Assembly: GCA_013360465.1 (NCBI GenBank)
Contig: JABWBO010000004.1
Location: forward strand, 124,001-188,000
DNA from: Anaerolineae bacterium
GTDB taxonomy: Bacteria > Chloroflexota > Anaerolineae > Aggregatilineales > Phototrophicaceae
Direction of reading: 5' to 3'
DNA length: 64,000 nt
Part shown: positions 23,844-29,868 of the stretch, in pieces
Position numbering within the stretch: the first letter of the stretch is position 1
Layout of the letters: each line of letters starts with the position of its first letter
Program-made: the position numbers and the translations under genes
Notes under the pieces: generated by a model
Database searches by the model: none
Seen by the model: only the letters and a program-made list of their open reading frames with translations
What the model was told of the DNA's origin: nothing

Positions 23844-25631
23844 ATGTCATTCGTCCGTTTGTTGTCGCGCACGGGAATGGTGGCGCTCCTGGCGTTCGCC
23901 ATGCTGCTGCCATTCGCCTCGGTATCCGCGCAAGATCTTCCCGTACTTGTTCTGCCGGTCGATCAGGCGCAGTTCCTGCCCGGCGCGGTGTTCGACTTCC
24001 GCGTCGAAGTCCACGCAGAAGCCCTTCCAGAGGATTTTGCTGTCACTGTTGGGACCGAACCCACCGCCGAAAGCTGGGCATTTGGACCTGAAGATGCCCC
24101 GACACCGGCGCAGTCCTGGGTTTGGCGCAGCGTCACCGCGCCGGCGCCCGGCGAGTATGTTGTCGAGGTGACTGCTGCTGACGCGACCACCAGCGTCACC
24201 TGGGTCGTCCGCGAACCTTCCAGCGAACGTGTGGCGCGCAACATCATCCTCTTCGTCGCCGATGGCATGAGTGTCCCGACCATCACCGCCGCCCGCGCGG
24301 CGCGCGGCATCACTCAGGGGCGTCCGATCAATCGTCTGGCGATGGACAGCGCCGAGTTTATCGGTCTCGCCAGCACCAGCAGTGTTGACTCCATCATGGC
24401 GGACAGCGCCAACACCGCCAGCGCCCTGAACACGGGTCATATCGGCAGCGTCAACGCGACCGGCAGCTACAGCGACACCTCGCCCGATTCGCTCGACGAT
24501 CCGCGCGTCGAAACCCTGGGTTCTCTCGTGAGCCGCCTTTACGGCATGTCGGTTGGCGTCGTCACGACCGCTGATTTCAGCGACGCAACTCCGGCGGCCG
24601 TCTGGGCGCATGGGCGCAATCGCGGAAACGGAAACCGCAACGCCTACCTCGTGCAGGCGCTTGAATCGGGCTATGTTGATGTTCTGATGGGTGGCGGCGC
24701 GCGCCGCCTGATCCCCCAGACGGTCGAAGGCTCGCGCCGCGAAGATGACCGCGACCTCTACGCCGAATACGAAGCAGCCGGCTACACCATCGTGACCAGC
24801 GCGACCGAGATGAATGCCGCGCTGGCTGCCGGCGGCGCCGATCAGATGCTCGGCGTATTCCACCCGAATGACATGAACGTCTGGCTGGATCGCAACGTCT
24901 ATACCGACAACCTGGGCGAATTCACCGACCAGCCGGGTCTGACGGACATGACCCTGGCGGCGATCCAGGTGTTGAGCCAGAACGAAAACGGTTTCTATCT
25001 GCAGGTCGAGGCTGCCAGCGTCGATAAGCAGCTGCACCCGCTCGATCAGGAACGCGCGCTGAGCGATCTGATTGAATTCGATCAGGCGATTGCAGCGGCA
25101 GCGGCGTGGGCGGCGGAAAATGCTCCTGACACGCTGATCATCGCGACGGCGGATCACGGACACGGCTATGATGTCTATGGGACCGTCAACCTCGACGAGT
25201 TCACTGCCGCGACCGATGATGCAGGACGCAGGGAAGCCATCGACGTTTACAACGGTGCCCGCTATCCGAATTACCCCGATGTCGACGGTGACGGTTTCCC
25301 GGAATGGCAGGATGCCAGCCGCGTCTTCGCCGGCACTGTCAACAACGGACCGGATCACACCGAAGACTTCCAGGTCAGCCCTGTGCCGCGCGTCCCGGCG
25401 ATTGACGACGGCAACGGCGTGTACGTCGATAACCCGGAAGACGATCCGAACGGCATCCCGGTTTCCGGCGTCCTCGATATTGGCAGCAGCACCGGCGTCC
25501 ATACCCTTCAGGATGTTCCGGTGTTCGCCTGGGGTCCCGGCGCTCAGAGCGTAGTCGGTCTTTACCACCAAAGCGAAATCTTCTTCATCATGGCGTCCGC
25601 ACTCGGTCTGAACCCCGCTGCGGGCAGCTAA
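23844..25631 (+). CDS. phoA: Secreted alkaline phosphatase
   Basis: A 595-residue secreted phosphomonoesterase. A signal peptide (to about residue 30, SVSAQD), an Ig-like beta-rich domain (about 31-130), then the alkaline phosphatase domain: metal-binding NIILFVADGMS, the nucleophile region MADSANTASALNTG, the VEAASVDKQLHP segment that corresponds to the usual E-G-x-x-D-x-x-x-H, TADHGHG, and GVHTLQDVP with the third-site His. A DVDGDGFPEW stretch resembles a calcium loop. ATG 23844 has GGAGGGAG 8 nt upstream. It supplies phosphate outside the cell; no Pho box could be recognised. A strong terminator follows. Confidence 0.92.
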   Translation: MSFVRLLSRTGMVALLAFAMLLPFASVSAQDLPVLVLPVDQAQFLPGAVFDFRVEVHAEALPEDFAVTVGTEPTAESWAFGPEDAPTPAQSWVWRSVTAPAPGEYVVEVTAADATTSVTWVVREPSSERVARNIILFVADGMSVPTITAARAARGITQGRPINRLAMDSAEFIGLASTSSVDSIMADSANTASALNTGHIGSVNATGSYSDTSPDSLDDPRVETLGSLVSRLYGMSVGVVTTADFSDATPAAVWAHGRNRGNGNRNAYLVQALESGYVDVLMGGGARRLIPQTVEGSRREDDRDLYAEYEAAGYTIVTSATEMNAALAAGGADQMLGVFHPNDMNVWLDRNVYTDNLGEFTDQPGLTDMTLAAIQVLSQNENGFYLQVEAASVDKQLHPLDQERALSDLIEFDQAIAAAAAWAAENAPDTLIIATADHGHGYDVYGTVNLDEFTAATDDAGRREAIDVYNGARYPNYPDVDGDGFPEWQDASRVFAGTVNNGPDHTEDFQVSPVPRVPAIDDGNGVYVDNPEDDPNGIPVSGVLDIGSSTGVHTLQDVPVFAWGPGAQSVVGLYHQSEIFFIMASALGLNPAAGS

Positions 25632-25693: not shown

Positions 25694-26392
25694 ATGTTGC
25701 GCAGACAGCTATTCCTTTCACTGATAGCCGCTGCTGCCAGCCTTACTCTCCTGGGGGGATGCAGCATTCCATCTGGCGCAGTCCAGCAGGTCACTCCACT
25801 GCCGCAGACCGCCTTTGTAGGTACTGCCGCCGCGACGCCTGCGCTTCAGGCTTCATTCACGGCACAGATGGATGAATCTCAGCAGGGAAACCCGGAAGCC
25901 GTGACGCCGACACCGCTCGATCTCAACCTGCTTGAAGGTCAGGCGCGCGCCATCGCCGCCGCCACCGACGCGGCACTTCAGCCGACACCGCGCAGCGTGA
26001 TCACCTTTGACTCCGAGCCGGTGCGTATCCGCTTTGACGAGTTTTACGACGGCTACAACCTGCGCACCGGACTGCTGCTTTCCGACAAGCTGGTCTCACT
26101 GGATGGCAGACAGGCAGTTTTGGAAGGTTACATGGCTCCGCCCCTGAAACCGGAACTGGATTACTTCGTCCTCACGCGCGTCAAGCTGGCGTTTTGTCCG
26201 TTCTGCAGCACGGCGTCGGATTGGCCCGACGACATCGCCCTGATCTATATGCCCGATGGGATGTCCACCGTCGCCACCGATCGCCCGGTGCGCATTACAG
26301 GGCGTCTGGAAATCGGACAGTCCGTCGATCAAGAGACCGGCATGGTCAGCCTCGTCCGCCTTTATGCCGATCTCGTCGAGGCGCTGGGCTGA
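25694..26392 (+). CDS. Lipoprotein with CPFC motif
   Basis: A 232-residue lipoprotein: signal sequence ending in the lipobox LLGGC, a low-complexity linker rich in T, P and A (about 30-100), and a compact C-terminal domain containing YMAPPLKP, FVLTRVKLAFCPFCSTASDWP (C168-P-F-C171) and ending in a conserved-looking VRITGRLEIG region. The two Cys could bind a metal or form a redox pair. The domain resembles DUF3299-type lipoproteins found next to LolD/LolE-like transporters; that match is from memory and moderate. ATG 25694 has GGAGG 11 nt upstream. Stop and next start overlap as TGATG. Confidence 0.65.
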   Translation: MLRRQLFLSLIAAAASLTLLGGCSIPSGAVQQVTPLPQTAFVGTAAATPALQASFTAQMDESQQGNPEAVTPTPLDLNLLEGQARAIAAATDAALQPTPRSVITFDSEPVRIRFDEFYDGYNLRTGLLLSDKLVSLDGRQAVLEGYMAPPLKPELDYFVLTRVKLAFCPFCSTASDWPDDIALIYMPDGMSTVATDRPVRITGRLEIGQSVDQETGMVSLVRLYADLVEALG

Positions 26393-27081
26393 TGCTGCGC
26401 TTCGATTCGGTATTCCTCGCCTACAGCGCCCGCGGTATCGAGTCGCGGATAGTCCTCAACATTCCATCCTGGAACCTGGCGCGCGGAACTCACGCCCTTC
26501 TGCGCGGTGTCAGCGGCAGCGGCAAAACCAGCTTCTTCAACATCGCTGCCGGTCTGCTCCGCCCAACATCCGGGGAAGTCTATCTGGATGATCAGCCGCT
26601 CTATCGACTGAGCGAAGCTGCGCGCGACCGCGTCCGGTCCGCCAAGGTCGGCTACATGTTTCAGATGCATCACCTCATGCCCGGCTTCACCGCGCTCGAA
26701 AATGTCCTCATGCCGATGATGTTCCTTCAGACCATACCCACTGCCCGGCGTAGAGCGCGCGCACTCGATCTGCTTGGCGCAGTCGGGCTTTCCGATTTTG
26801 CGCAGCATCGTCCTCACCAACTCAGCGCCGGACAGCGCCTGCGCGTCAGCGCAGCCCGTGCCCTGGCGAACGAACCTGTGATGGTGCTAGCGGATGAGCC
26901 GACGGCGGCGCTTGATGCCCTTAGCTCCGCCCTCGTCCTTGATATGCTGCAAAGCGTCTGTCGGATGAACTATGCGTCATTGATTGTCGCCAGCCATGAT
27001 CCGCTGCTTGCCGCTCGGTTCTCAGTCGTTTATGACCTGCGTGATGGGCATCTAAGCGAAAGCGAGATCGCACCGGCATGA
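26392..27081 (+). CDS. LolD/MacB-type ABC ATPase
   Basis: A 229-aa ATPase with Walker A GVSGSGKTS, the Q-loop segment GYMFQMHHLMPGFTALENVLMP, signature QLSAGQRLRVSAARALA and Walker B VMVLADEPTAALD, all typical of LolD/MacB/FtsE-like ATPases that pair with FtsX-fold permeases. The TGATG start at 26392 is coupled to the lipoprotein gene; the longer open frame upstream lies within that gene. The downstream permease start overlaps its stop (ATGA). It probably powers mechanical work on a lipoprotein or periplasmic partner, not classic import. Confidence 0.88.
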   Translation: MLRFDSVFLAYSARGIESRIVLNIPSWNLARGTHALLRGVSGSGKTSFFNIAAGLLRPTSGEVYLDDQPLYRLSEAARDRVRSAKVGYMFQMHHLMPGFTALENVLMPMMFLQTIPTARRRARALDLLGAVGLSDFAQHRPHQLSAGQRLRVSAARALANEPVMVLADEPTAALDALSSALVLDMLQSVCRMNYASLIVASHDPLLAARFSVVYDLRDGHLSESEIAPA

Positions 27082-28322
27082 CCTACGACCTATTTCTGGC
27101 TTGGCGAAGCCTGCGCTCCCGCCCGGTCCAAAGCGGCATCACCCTCCTGATCATCGGTCTGGCAGTCGCTCTACCGCTGGTCGTCCTATCCCTCAGCGAC
27201 GGTGCTAGGCGCGGTATCGTTCGAGCCAGCGATCCCTTCGGGGTGCTGGTGATCGGCGCGAAGGGCAGCGGGCAGCAGCTCGTCCTCAGCACACTGCTCT
27301 TGCAGGGCGCGCCGGTGGGCAATATCCCAACAACCCTGTACACCGAACTTAGGGACGACACCCGTGCAACGCTAGCCGTCCCCATCGCGCTCGGCGACAA
27401 TGTCGGCGGAGCGCGCCTGGTTGGCACGTCCGCCGACCTCCTGGAACTGCGTCCATCTACCACTGAACCGCCAACCTTCCGCATCGTTCAGGGACGTTTC
27501 TTTGAGGCAGCGTTTGAGGCGGTCCTGGGCAGCGCTGCTGCGCAGGCGCTGGGTCTCACTGTCGGCGACACGTTTCTGGCATCACATGGCGTTGCACCGG
27601 GTTTGGAAGAGGATGTCCACGACGAGCCCTATACCATCGTCGGCGTGTTCGATTCAACCTCCAGCCCTTACGACACTGCCGTCTTCGTTTCGCTGGAGAG
27701 CATCTGGCATACGCACGAACATGAGGAAGACGAAAGGCTGTCGGCGTTCGACTATGCCATTGAGCCGACTGAGCCGGAACAGATGATCACTGCGGTACTC
27801 GTCAAGCCTGCCGGATTCATCGAGGCGAATCTGCTGTGGCAGTCATTCTCGACCGGAACTCAGGCTCAGGCGGCGTTTCCTGGACAGGAGCTTGGCGCGC
27901 TCTTCGATCTCTTTGCCCAAGTCGAGCGTATCCTTGGCGCTGTCGGTGGGCTAGTGCTGGTCATCGCGGGGCTGACAGCGTTCCTGTCCCTCTACAATGC
28001 CATCGCCGCGCGCGAGGGTACAATTGCACTCATGCGCGCCCTGGGCTGCAGCCGCACATCCATCTTTCGGGTGGTGATCCTCGAGTCCCTGATCGCAACA
28101 ATCGCCGGTATCATCCTGGGGCAGCTACTCGGGTATGTCACCGCCCTCGTCATCGCCGCGCTGCTGACAGCGCAGTCGGCAATACCAATCCCGGTGCAGT
28201 TCCTGCCCACACAAGCGACGCTGCTTTGGCTCACGCCGCTGTTGCTCGGTGTCGCCGCAGCGATCATCCCGGCAGTCCGGGCATACCGTGTCGAAATCAT
28301 CCAGAAGCTATTCCCAACCTGA
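27078..28322 (+). CDS. FtsX/MacB-type permease
   Basis: A 414-residue permease with one N-terminal helix (about 17-40), a long extracytoplasmic domain (about 45-285) resembling the MacB periplasmic core (GRFFEAAFEAVLGSAAAQALGLTVGD), and three C-terminal helices, the layout of FtsX-domain proteins. ARALGCSRTSIFRVVILESLIA is the usual intracellular motif before the second helix. A histidine/acidic stretch, HTHEHEEDE (about residues 213-221), lies in the extracytoplasmic domain and could bind divalent metal. It overlaps the ATPase (ATGA) and the following TlpA gene (TGATG). Confidence 0.88.
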   Translation: MTYDLFLAWRSLRSRPVQSGITLLIIGLAVALPLVVLSLSDGARRGIVRASDPFGVLVIGAKGSGQQLVLSTLLLQGAPVGNIPTTLYTELRDDTRATLAVPIALGDNVGGARLVGTSADLLELRPSTTEPPTFRIVQGRFFEAAFEAVLGSAAAQALGLTVGDTFLASHGVAPGLEEDVHDEPYTIVGVFDSTSSPYDTAVFVSLESIWHTHEHEEDERLSAFDYAIEPTEPEQMITAVLVKPAGFIEANLLWQSFSTGTQAQAAFPGQELGALFDLFAQVERILGAVGGLVLVIAGLTAFLSLYNAIAAREGTIALMRALGCSRTSIFRVVILESLIATIAGIILGQLLGYVTALVIAALLTAQSAIPIPVQFLPTQATLLWLTPLLLGVAAAIIPAVRAYRVEIIQKLFPT

Positions 28323-28828
28323 TGCGCATGTTCATGATCGCCGCGCTCGTCGTGGTGTTGGCTGGATGCGTGGGAAGGGTTGACAGCCCTGCCCCAGACG
28401 CGATTTCGGAAGAAGAGCCATTTTCCGCCCCAGATTTCTCACTCGCGGACCCGGAGGGTACGCCTGTTCGATTGTCTCAGCAGCGTGGGCGCTGGGTTAT
28501 CCTCAACTTCTGGGCAACATGGTGCGCCCCCTGCGTCGCTGAGATGCCCTTGCTCGCGGCACTGGCTGCCGAGCGCGCTGAAACGCACATCCTGATCGGC
28601 ATCAACGTGCGCGAGGGTCGTGCGGCGGTCGCCAGGTTTGCCGAACAACACCAGCTGGGTTTTCGGCTCCTCGTCGATCCGCCGGACTCGCTGCTCGTGG
28701 ACTACAGCGTAATCGGTCTTCCGCAGACACTCGTCATCAGCCCCGAAGGCGAAATCATCTGGCGTCAGTTCGGACCCGTCGACGGAGAGTCTTTCGGCAC
28801 GCTGCTGGATTCGCTCATTTCAGGCTGA
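28322..28828 (+). CDS. TlpA/ResA-like thioredoxin-fold lipoprotein
   Basis: The 168-aa protein has a lipoprotein signal (VVLAGC), then a thioredoxin-like domain with NFWATWCAPCVAEMP (WCxxC active site) and the cis-Pro in IGLPQTL. It belongs to the TlpA/ResA group, which reduces disulfides outside the membrane. Start ATG 28322 overlaps the permease stop (TGATG). Its place at the end of an operon that begins with a CPFC lipoprotein suggests that it may keep those Cys residues reduced, or help to load a metal; inference. Confidence 0.87.
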   Translation: MRMFMIAALVVVLAGCVGRVDSPAPDAISEEEPFSAPDFSLADPEGTPVRLSQQRGRWVILNFWATWCAPCVAEMPLLAALAAERAETHILIGINVREGRAAVARFAEQHQLGFRLLVDPPDSLLVDYSVIGLPQTLVISPEGEIIWRQFGPVDGESFGTLLDSLISG

Positions 28829-28890: not shown

Positions 28891-29868
28891 ATGCCCTTAT
28901 TTGATCTCTCCTTCCATGAACTACAGCACTACCGTCCCACGCGCGAGGAGATGCCCGACTTCGATGCTTTCTGGTCGGCGACGCTCGCCTATACGCGAGG
29001 CTATGATCTCAACGCCCATTTCGAACCCGTCGATCACGGTTCAAAGGTCTTCAAGACCTACGATGTCACCTTCAACGGCTACGGAGGGCAGCCCGTCAAA
29101 GGTTGGTTCATCCTGCCGGCGCAAACTGAAGGACTGGTCCCCTGCATCGTCATGTATGTGGGCTACGGCGGCGGTCGCGGCTTTTCCTTCGACCATTTCC
29201 AGTGGCCCGCCTGCGGCTATGCACTGCTCCTGATGGACACGCGCGGGCAGGGCAGCACATGGTCGCCCGGCGACACGCCCGACCTGCCGACCGACGGCGC
29301 GAATCCGTTCTTCCCCGGCTTCATGACCCAGGGTATCCTCGACAAGACCACTTACTACTACCGCCGCGTCTTCGCCGATGCAGCGCGCGCCGTTGAGGCG
29401 GCGACTTCGCACCCCCAGGTGGATTCTGGACGAATCGCCATCACCGGCGGCAGCCAGGGCGGCGGCATCACGCTGGCAGCGGCGGCGCTCATGCGCGGTC
29501 ACGTGGCGGCAGCGCTGCCCGATGTGCCCTTCCTGTGCCATTACCGCCGCGCCACGACGCTCATCGATACCGCGCCTTACAACGAGATCACCCGCTACCT
29601 CAAGACTCACCGCGACAAGATCGATGCTGCCTTCACCACCTTGAGCTATTTCGATGGCATGAACTTCGCCGCCCGCGCCGACGCGCCGGCGCTCTTCTCG
29701 GTCGGCTTGATGGACGACATCTGTCCCCCTTCCACCGTCTACGCTGCTTATAACCACTACGCCGGCGACAAGCAGATCGCCATCTACCCCTTCAACAATC
29801 ATGAAGGGGGGCAAAGCTTTCATCATCTGGCGAAGGTGCGCTTCCTGGAGCGACTCTGGGGTGGGTGA
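28891..29868 (+). CDS. Acetylxylan esterase / cephalosporin-C deacetylase (CE7)
   Basis: A 325-residue alpha/beta hydrolase matching carbohydrate esterase family 7. RGQGSTW (oxyanion/structural RGQ), GGSQGGG with nucleophile S188, the late Asp in [10 protein letters not shown] and His in NNHEGGQ (about residue 303) are in order. CE7 enzymes remove acetyl groups from short xylo-oligosaccharides and antibiotics and are normally intracellular; no signal peptide is seen. AGAGGAAG precedes ATG 28891. It lies 62 nt after the TlpA gene but has no functional link to it. A bidirectional terminator follows. Confidence 0.9.

Follow-up and report, generated by a model that had tools for sequence, protein, structure and literature searches.

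A PhoA-type alkaline phosphatase gene in one row with a Zrg-like, possibly zinc-handling ABC unit

A stretch of 64,000 nucleotides from an Anaerolineae bacterium (GCA_013360465.1, contig JABWBO010000004.1), hereafter the window, to which all coordinates refer, encodes at 25694-28828 on the plus strand four overlapping open reading frames (ORFs) for a lipoprotein with a CPFC motif, a LolD-like ATP-binding cassette (ABC) ATPase, a MacB/LolE-type permease and a TlpA-like lipoprotein, directly preceded by the gene for an alkaline phosphatase (alkP). The core conserved across phyla comprises alkP, the CPFC OB-fold protein, the ATPase and the permease. Judged from sequence, the operon might pair a secreted PhoA-type zinc phosphatase with a Zrg-like ABC partner dedicated to zinc handling, a reading to which a probability of about 0.5 is assigned. 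That the unit is a zinc-linked partner of the phosphatase is highly probable, while the direction of the zinc traffic, towards the phosphatase in the sense of delivery, is a tentative proposal from gene content that stands at slightly under even odds.

The features of the locus are the following, all on the plus strand:
23844 to 25631, plus strand: alkP, secreted PhoA-type alkaline phosphatase, 595 amino acids (aa), with signal peptide, N-terminal domain and PF00245
25694 to 26392, plus strand: CPFC lipoprotein, 232 aa, with lipobox LLGGC23, Thr/Pro-rich linker and C-terminal OB-fold domain (DUF3299 type, likely)
26195 to 26206, plus strand: CPFC motif, residues 168-171, invariant among aligned family domains
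26392 to 27081, plus strand: LolD-like ABC ATPase, 229 aa, ABC_tran 97 bits
27078 to 28322, plus strand: MacB/LolE-type permease, 414 aa, four transmembrane (TM) helices and a large ectodomain, MacB_PCD 52 bits, FtsX 48.5 bits
27585 to 27587, plus strand: permease ectodomain H170, invariant among aligned permeases
27618 to 27620, plus strand: permease ectodomain H181, invariant among aligned permeases
27708 to 27734, plus strand: His/Glu-rich stretch HTHEHEEDE of the permease, residues 211-219, including invariant H213 (27714-27716)
28322 to 28828, plus strand: TlpA/ResA-like thiol-disulfide lipoprotein, 168 aa, AhpC-TSA 86 bits

The four overlapping ORFs that the initial annotation had joined were recovered with their positions and junctions (TGATG, ATGA, TGATG), and as the gene order recurs in other genomes, the row is beyond chance. 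The genes of this proposed membrane unit are thus real; what had been overlooked is alkP, which ends 62 bp before the CPFC gene on the same strand and is part of the conserved unit. The dicysteine lipoprotein, the His/Glu-rich stretch of the permease ectodomain and the TlpA lipoprotein (lipobox LAGC16; WATWCAPC; CxxC at 28523-28534) were found as described.

Among 61 genomes searched near home, 15 of them in the genus of the window, the CPFC protein is present in five, all within the genus (5/15), and in each of these copies alkP stands directly upstream, followed by the genes for the CPFC protein, the ATPase and the permease. TlpA follows the permease in four copies (window, L024, L025 and L026) and was not found in the fifth, L027, which is one and the same locus as L036. 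The family phosphatase occurs in seven of the 61 genomes, namely the five with the CPFC protein and, in addition, G034 and G040. In a sample of 301 genomes of the phylum, three encode the CPFC protein and the same three a full-length family phosphatase; a partial phosphatase match was obtained in G233 and weaker ones in two further genomes. Searches with tblastn located the order alkP, CPFC protein, ATPase and permease in plasmid records of Deinococcus radiodurans R1 (DR_RS15680-15700), Thermus, Allomeiothermus, Azospirillum, Shinella, Paracoccus and D. wulumuqiensis, in the last of these with an insertion sequence (IS) element cutting into the permease; the same order is present in Rhizobium sp. 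CB3171.

A scan with the CPFC profile covered one genome per species (84,980 species), and the best 80 of at least 574 confirmed stretches were kept. Conservation of the motif in these 80 loci is partly due to selection, as the scan patterns included GxMAPPLK or CPFC; adjacency of alkP is free of this pattern selection, but judged on the loci nearest to the query. By own profiles, alkP adjoins the CPFC gene or the unit in 79 of the 80 loci, upstream in 78 and behind the permease in L047; the remaining locus, L051, is truncated by the end of its contig. A distance test assigned alkP to 78, the ATPase to 78 and the permease to 76 of the loci, with misses in L047, L051, the contig ends L056 and L058, which stop before or at the permease, and the Beijerinckiaceae loci L095 and L099. 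According to the record titles the loci stem from Chloroflexota, Deinococcota, Synergistaceae, Bacillota (Negativicutes, Paenibacillus, Hydrogenibacillus and others), alpha-, beta- and gammaproteobacteria, a deltaproteobacterial metagenome-assembled genome (MAG) and Mailhella.

In the Chloroflexota loci L037-L040 the unit is followed by a TlpA gene, and in L041, likewise Chloroflexota, such a gene stands ahead of alkP. The 74 loci from outside Chloroflexota have no TlpA gene adjacent to the unit, though L095 has a distant match; the distance count for TlpA ignored matches below 60 bits (one of 26 bits in L049). As TlpA stands beside the unit only in Chloroflexota, it is an add-on, a Chloroflexota-specific accessory, and the core consists of the four genes including alkP. 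Of the components combined by the initial annotation, the CPFC pair is conserved across homologous operons and TlpA is not. No recurrent fifth gene emerged 3' of the permease, as among 54 of 67 called downstream ORFs compared with Pfam (crude gene calls, 13 ORFs left out) no family was seen more than four times. In the window, the next gene after TlpA, at 28891-29868, belongs to the acetyl xylan esterase family (AXE1, 386 bits); it adjoins the unit in L024 too and has no match in L025-L027. Deinococcus radiodurans (L028) and Shinella (L032) both have dihydroxyacetone kinase genes close to the unit, which may be chance, and in L099, a Beijerinckiaceae MAG, a second CPFC-like stretch about 2 kb on precedes an ATPase and a permease gene.

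By family match (PF00245, 249 bits with a cut-off of 24.4) and metal-site residues the alkP product is a PhoA-type alkaline phosphatase; solved alkaline phosphatases match the window protein with a best E of 1.5e-35, and the metal-site motifs can be seen in these matches. At least 97% of 87 members retain residues D140, S188, T249, E389, D394, H398, D437, H438 and H553, which by their mapping to E. coli PhoA we take to be the metal-site positions. Cysteine is lacking in the window phosphatase and its four genus relatives, and many homologues elsewhere have one to five. As the window enzyme is devoid of cysteine, neither the CPFC protein nor TlpA serves its disulfides, and disulfide formation in the phosphatase by these two proteins is ruled out for this enzyme and for those of the four genus relatives.

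The permease has the MacB/LolCDE fold according to its structural model (mean predicted local distance difference test, pLDDT, 89.5), which matches LolC/LolE and MacB structures with E of about 1e-16. All of the 44 permeases aligned carry the histidines H170, H181 and H213, which are shared by both ZrgB sequences compared (Phaeobacter L034 and Sulfitobacter L126), while a single MacB-like outgroup has the aligned H181 alone, with G at the position of H170. In the permease tree, calculated with a single outgroup, the phosphatase-linked copies cluster (support 0.90) beside the Zrg pair. H213 is surrounded by an acidic His-rich loop of variable length, HTHEHEEDE in the window and with one to 21 His across homologues, several of which have H213 as the sole His in the loop region.

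The unit is not a characterised LolDE or MacAB variant. The ATPase scores under the cut-offs of all 25 NCBIfam models listed, of 183 matched. The LolD model reaches 181.4 of 307.75 bits, the LolCE model 42.1 of 362.45 bits and the MacB model 137 of 966 bits for the ATPase. MacB of MacAB-TolC shares the permease fold and the ATPase type, but in the alkP unit ATPase and permease are separate proteins encoded by separate genes, and no MacA adaptor or TolC gene belongs to the conserved unit in the plasmid records, the 80 loci or the downstream ORFs. A MacB/HlyD/TolC set beside the Azospirillum copy is separate from the unit and unseen in the other plasmid records fetched. LolCDE is similar in the folds of ATPase and permease, whereas the alkP unit has one permease, occurs also in Bacillota and remains far below the LolD and LolCE cut-offs. 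The TlpA protein is, like TlpA/ResA, a CxxC thioredoxin-fold lipoprotein, but scores 94 of 170 bits, under the ResA subfamily cut-off, and is a Chloroflexota-only accessory of the unit.

The CPFC lipoprotein has no Pfam match up to E = 10, and searches of PDB sequences with the protein and its profile gave nothing significant, so that fold comparison alone produced a match. The model of the CPFC domain, derived from a 53-domain alignment (mean pLDDT 87.5), has as its best Foldseek PDB match 4hsp, the DUF3299 protein PA4066 (E 9.8e-6), followed by an OB-fold binder (E 4.4e-4). With VIA-align the superposition of the model on 4hsp (112 residues, 3.1 A) reaches Z 10.5 and that on the next OB fold 9.7, a tie, as Z values within 1 count as such. 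On the basis of the model the OB fold of the domain is regarded as secure and kinship with DUF3299 as likely. Aligned by eye, the motifs GxMAPPLK...FFVLT...CPFC...WP of the CPFC protein correspond to PGxxxP...F.LVP..GAC.H.P.P..NQ of DUF3299. The CPFC motif itself is invariant in 53 of 53 aligned domains and in 91 of 91 copies, 80 of which were found by patterns including GxMAPPLK or CPFC and 11 without. A twin-arginine-like signal is recognized in 49 of the 91 copies by a loose pattern, some spurious by eye, and would suit export of the protein after folding. In the window the CPFC protein is a lipoprotein. PF11736 (DUF3299) gave sub-threshold matches in 18 of 201 phylum genomes and none above the cut-off. 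On plasmid pHP-187 of Marinobacter adhaerens (L121:957-5468) the genes for a metallophosphoesterase and a phosphatase of the PhoD family are directly followed by a DUF3299 gene, and the annotated surroundings contain no ABC genes, which is a second hint at a link of the DUF3299 fold with secreted metallophosphatases.

Which described system does this gene row resemble? ZrgABCDE is a Zur-regulated zinc system encoded by zrgE (DUF3299), zrgB, zrgC, zrgA (DUF2796) and zrgD (PMC9817125), with ZrgB predicted to possess four TM helices and a MacB-like periplasmic domain and ZrgA needed in a znuA background (PMC9820375), and PA4063-4066 has been interpreted as a periplasmic zinc system (PMC8561739). 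The alkP unit shares with these systems a separate LolD-like ATPase, a four-TM MacB-type permease, a probable DUF3299-type OB-fold protein and, in some copies, putative Zur-type control, and with the two ZrgB sequences the three permease histidines. It differs in that the phosphatase replaces ZrgA, in that its OB-fold protein, not recognized by PF11736, carries CPFC instead of GAC.H and is encoded ahead of the ATPase, whereas the Zrg and PA4063-4066 counterpart follows the permease, and in the Pho-box-like control of proteobacterial alkP units. No other copy of ZrgA was detected in the 80 loci with a weak model built from one Phaeobacter ZrgA. The alkP unit is thus kin of ZrgABCDE and PA4063-4066 with alkP in place of the zinc-binding ZrgA and, as ZrgA is missing, it is not Zrg in the strict sense but a new, phosphatase-paired version of the Zrg-type zinc unit. 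The initial annotation had matched the set to no described machine; the ABC parts and, probably, the OB-fold part do have such a match, while for the pairing of an alkaline phosphatase with such a transporter unit no description was found in the titles and abstract starts of the papers listed from the open-licence PMC literature.

Promoter elements connect the operon with zinc and phosphate. For the proteobacterial promoters, matches to a Pho-box consensus and to the Zur-like palindrome TGTTATANTATAACA were counted with at most three mismatches. A Pho-box-like repeat is located upstream of alkP in 31 of 46 proteobacterial loci (random windows from the same loci: mean 1.5, maximum 4) and the palindrome TGTTATANTATAACA in eight of the 46 (random windows: mean 0.3, maximum 1), whereby shuffles and random windows leave kinship in and the Bosea genomes are close relatives. 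The 46 promoters include three loci of Mailhella, kin of Desulfovibrio, while the deltaproteobacterial L050 was placed in the other group; these 40 other promoters display no enrichment of the Pho box or the alphaproteobacterial Zur consensus. The eight palindrome loci are six Bosea, Rhizobiales bacterium 2SD and Mangrovicella, and in all of them a Pho-box-like site begins 28-39 bp downstream of the palindrome, with at most three mismatches in seven. With at most one mismatch, the palindrome is found at two places in the 6.2 Mb of Bosea caraganae, one being the alkP promoter, and at the alkP promoter only in Bosea sp. OK403; one Bosea one-mismatch site elsewhere (L132) is upstream of an ORF that by eye appears porin-like. 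The related element TGTTATAGTRTTTCA stands upstream of a znuA gene in six of seven genomes. The gene before alkP in L076, cynS-like by eye, is on the same strand, so that no divergent gene accounts for the box, whereas the box of L113 has alkP on one side and a divergent ORF on the other and could serve either.

In Chloroflexota, TGATACTCTGTATCA at one znuA promoter is the sole perfect TGATACNNNGTATCA in the 5.9 Mb of the window genome, and five related genomes contain seven further perfect sites. The eight perfect sites in these six genomes stand before ZnuA (five), L28-CobW (one), CobW (one) and the alkP operon of L025 (one). At alkP promoters the operator is perfect in L025, has one mismatch in L037 and is present in L027 in two copies with two mismatches each; the genes upstream of alkP in these three loci are tandem, not divergent, according to the ORF lists. 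In the comparison of alkP promoters for this operator, L036 was grouped with the other loci, although it belongs to Chloroflexota. The one-mismatch sites inspected belong to the alkP operon (L037), to a region upstream of ZnuA (L160) and, by eye, to phage-like genes (L147), and a reversed control pattern also gives zero to six one-mismatch sites per genome. Zur-type control of alkP operons in two distant lineages, although not at the window copy, is well supported by these candidate operators. In G011 (L154:1501-3013) a perfect Zur-type operator is located ahead of the genes for ribosomal protein L28 and a CobW GTPase, a set familiar from Zur regulons elsewhere. No PhoU match was obtained in the window genome G000, given as 97% complete; of 14 control genomes, 13 gave a match.

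That a single gene row combines a zinc enzyme, putative Zur-type operators, a permease site of the zinc type and a cysteine-bearing OB-fold protein suggests zinc handling for the phosphatase, and the initial annotation's proposal of metal handling at the outer face of the membrane gains support from the ZrgB-type permease histidines, the DUF3299 (PA4066) fold predicted for the CPFC protein, the zinc-site residues retained in the neighbouring phosphatase and the Zur-type operators before homologous operons. Zinc may collect on the histidine site and the His-rich loop of the permease ectodomain, and ATP hydrolysis would move the ectodomain by mechanotransmission of the MacB kind. From its anchoring place beside the permease (in the window as a lipoprotein), the CPFC protein might then hand the metal to the phosphatase, which would be loaded even under zinc scarcity. 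TlpA-type proteins keep other periplasmic metal carriers reduced; in Chloroflexota, TlpA could keep the CPFC cysteines reduced and able to bind metal.

Several observations weigh against this proposal. The unit is not essential to the enzyme, as G034 and G040 encode family phosphatases with no CPFC, ATPase or permease gene beside them (within 6.5 of 7.0 kb and a whole contig of 8.7 kb, respectively), and L095 and L099 possess alkP and the CPFC gene with no adjacent ATPase and permease. The comparison of the CPFC and DUF3299 profiles is weak (E 0.0013, probability 19%), albeit in the same register as the motif alignment by eye, and PF11736 does not recognize the CPFC protein in Pfam up to E = 10. 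The window copy has no convincing Zur operator (two mismatches inside the upstream gene; three at -143), nor do G006 and G001 have TGATACNNNGTATCA at the alkP promoter within one mismatch. With respect to the relatives, knockouts of zrgD or zrgE alone are described as without effect (PMC9820375), and PA4063-4066 has more recently been interpreted as a MacB-type exporter with a link to cobalt-pyochelin (PMC11481552). Finally, pure delivery sits oddly with making a zinc enzyme in zinc scarcity. Under Zur derepression, either the phosphatase is given priority by the unit or it takes part in gathering zinc.

This second possibility constitutes the main rival, an importer as proposed for ZrgABC, in which the phosphatase is a zinc-binding or zinc-releasing partner replacing ZrgA, for example by freeing zinc bound to organic phosphates, or is co-expressed as a zinc drain. 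Zur-type operators before the whole operon including alkP fit a scavenging role, alkP occupies the position of zrgA seen in Phaeobacter and Zrg systems aid growth in low zinc (PMC9820375; PMC9817125). The window genome, however, already has two ZnuA genes, and the permease fold is that of the MacB/LolCDE superfamily. This fold counts against import, as to our knowledge the known members of the superfamily do not import small ions, and the importer is judged unlikely. Export of a metal or metal-bound small molecule, as in the recent reading of PA4064-PA4065, is quite improbable: a MacB-like permease and cobalt accumulation in PA4065 mutants (PMC11481552) speak for it, but the conserved unit is without a TolC or MacA gene and Zur-type operators overlapping promoters suggest expression in zinc shortage rather than excess. 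The probability is very low that the ABC unit and the CPFC protein act on the phosphatase at the membrane by metal-free force, be it for its release, folding or opening, as FtsEX does with its hydrolases. The constant neighbourhood with the phosphatase and the mechanotransmission named for MacB (PMC11481552) speak for this mode, but it leaves the invariant histidines, the His-rich loops and the Zur-type operators unexplained. The role of one row of lipoproteins, TlpA and a LolD-like ATPase in redox-dependent lipoprotein processing, as suggested by the initial annotation, or in LolCDE-like lipoprotein sorting is largely refuted by distribution and can be dismissed almost entirely, as TlpA does not adjoin the unit outside Chloroflexota, cysteine is absent from the window phosphatase, a single permease instead of two is encoded, the LolD and LolCE scores are low (181 of 308 and 42 of 362 bits) and the unit occurs also in Bacillota such as Paenibacillus, which have no outer membrane.

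Zinc is required by phosphatases of the PhoA type and can become limiting where organic phosphorus is used. The question of how secreted phosphatases obtain their metal becomes directly testable with a conserved gene set in which a zinc phosphatase and a zinc-type ABC unit occur together with Zur-type operators and Pho-box-like repeats. As the likely client is encoded in the same gene row, the alkP unit also offers a new handle on the function of the unsettled Zrg and PA4063-4066 systems and of the DUF3299 fold. If zinc handling for the phosphatase holds true, it would link bacterial phosphate acquisition to zinc management.

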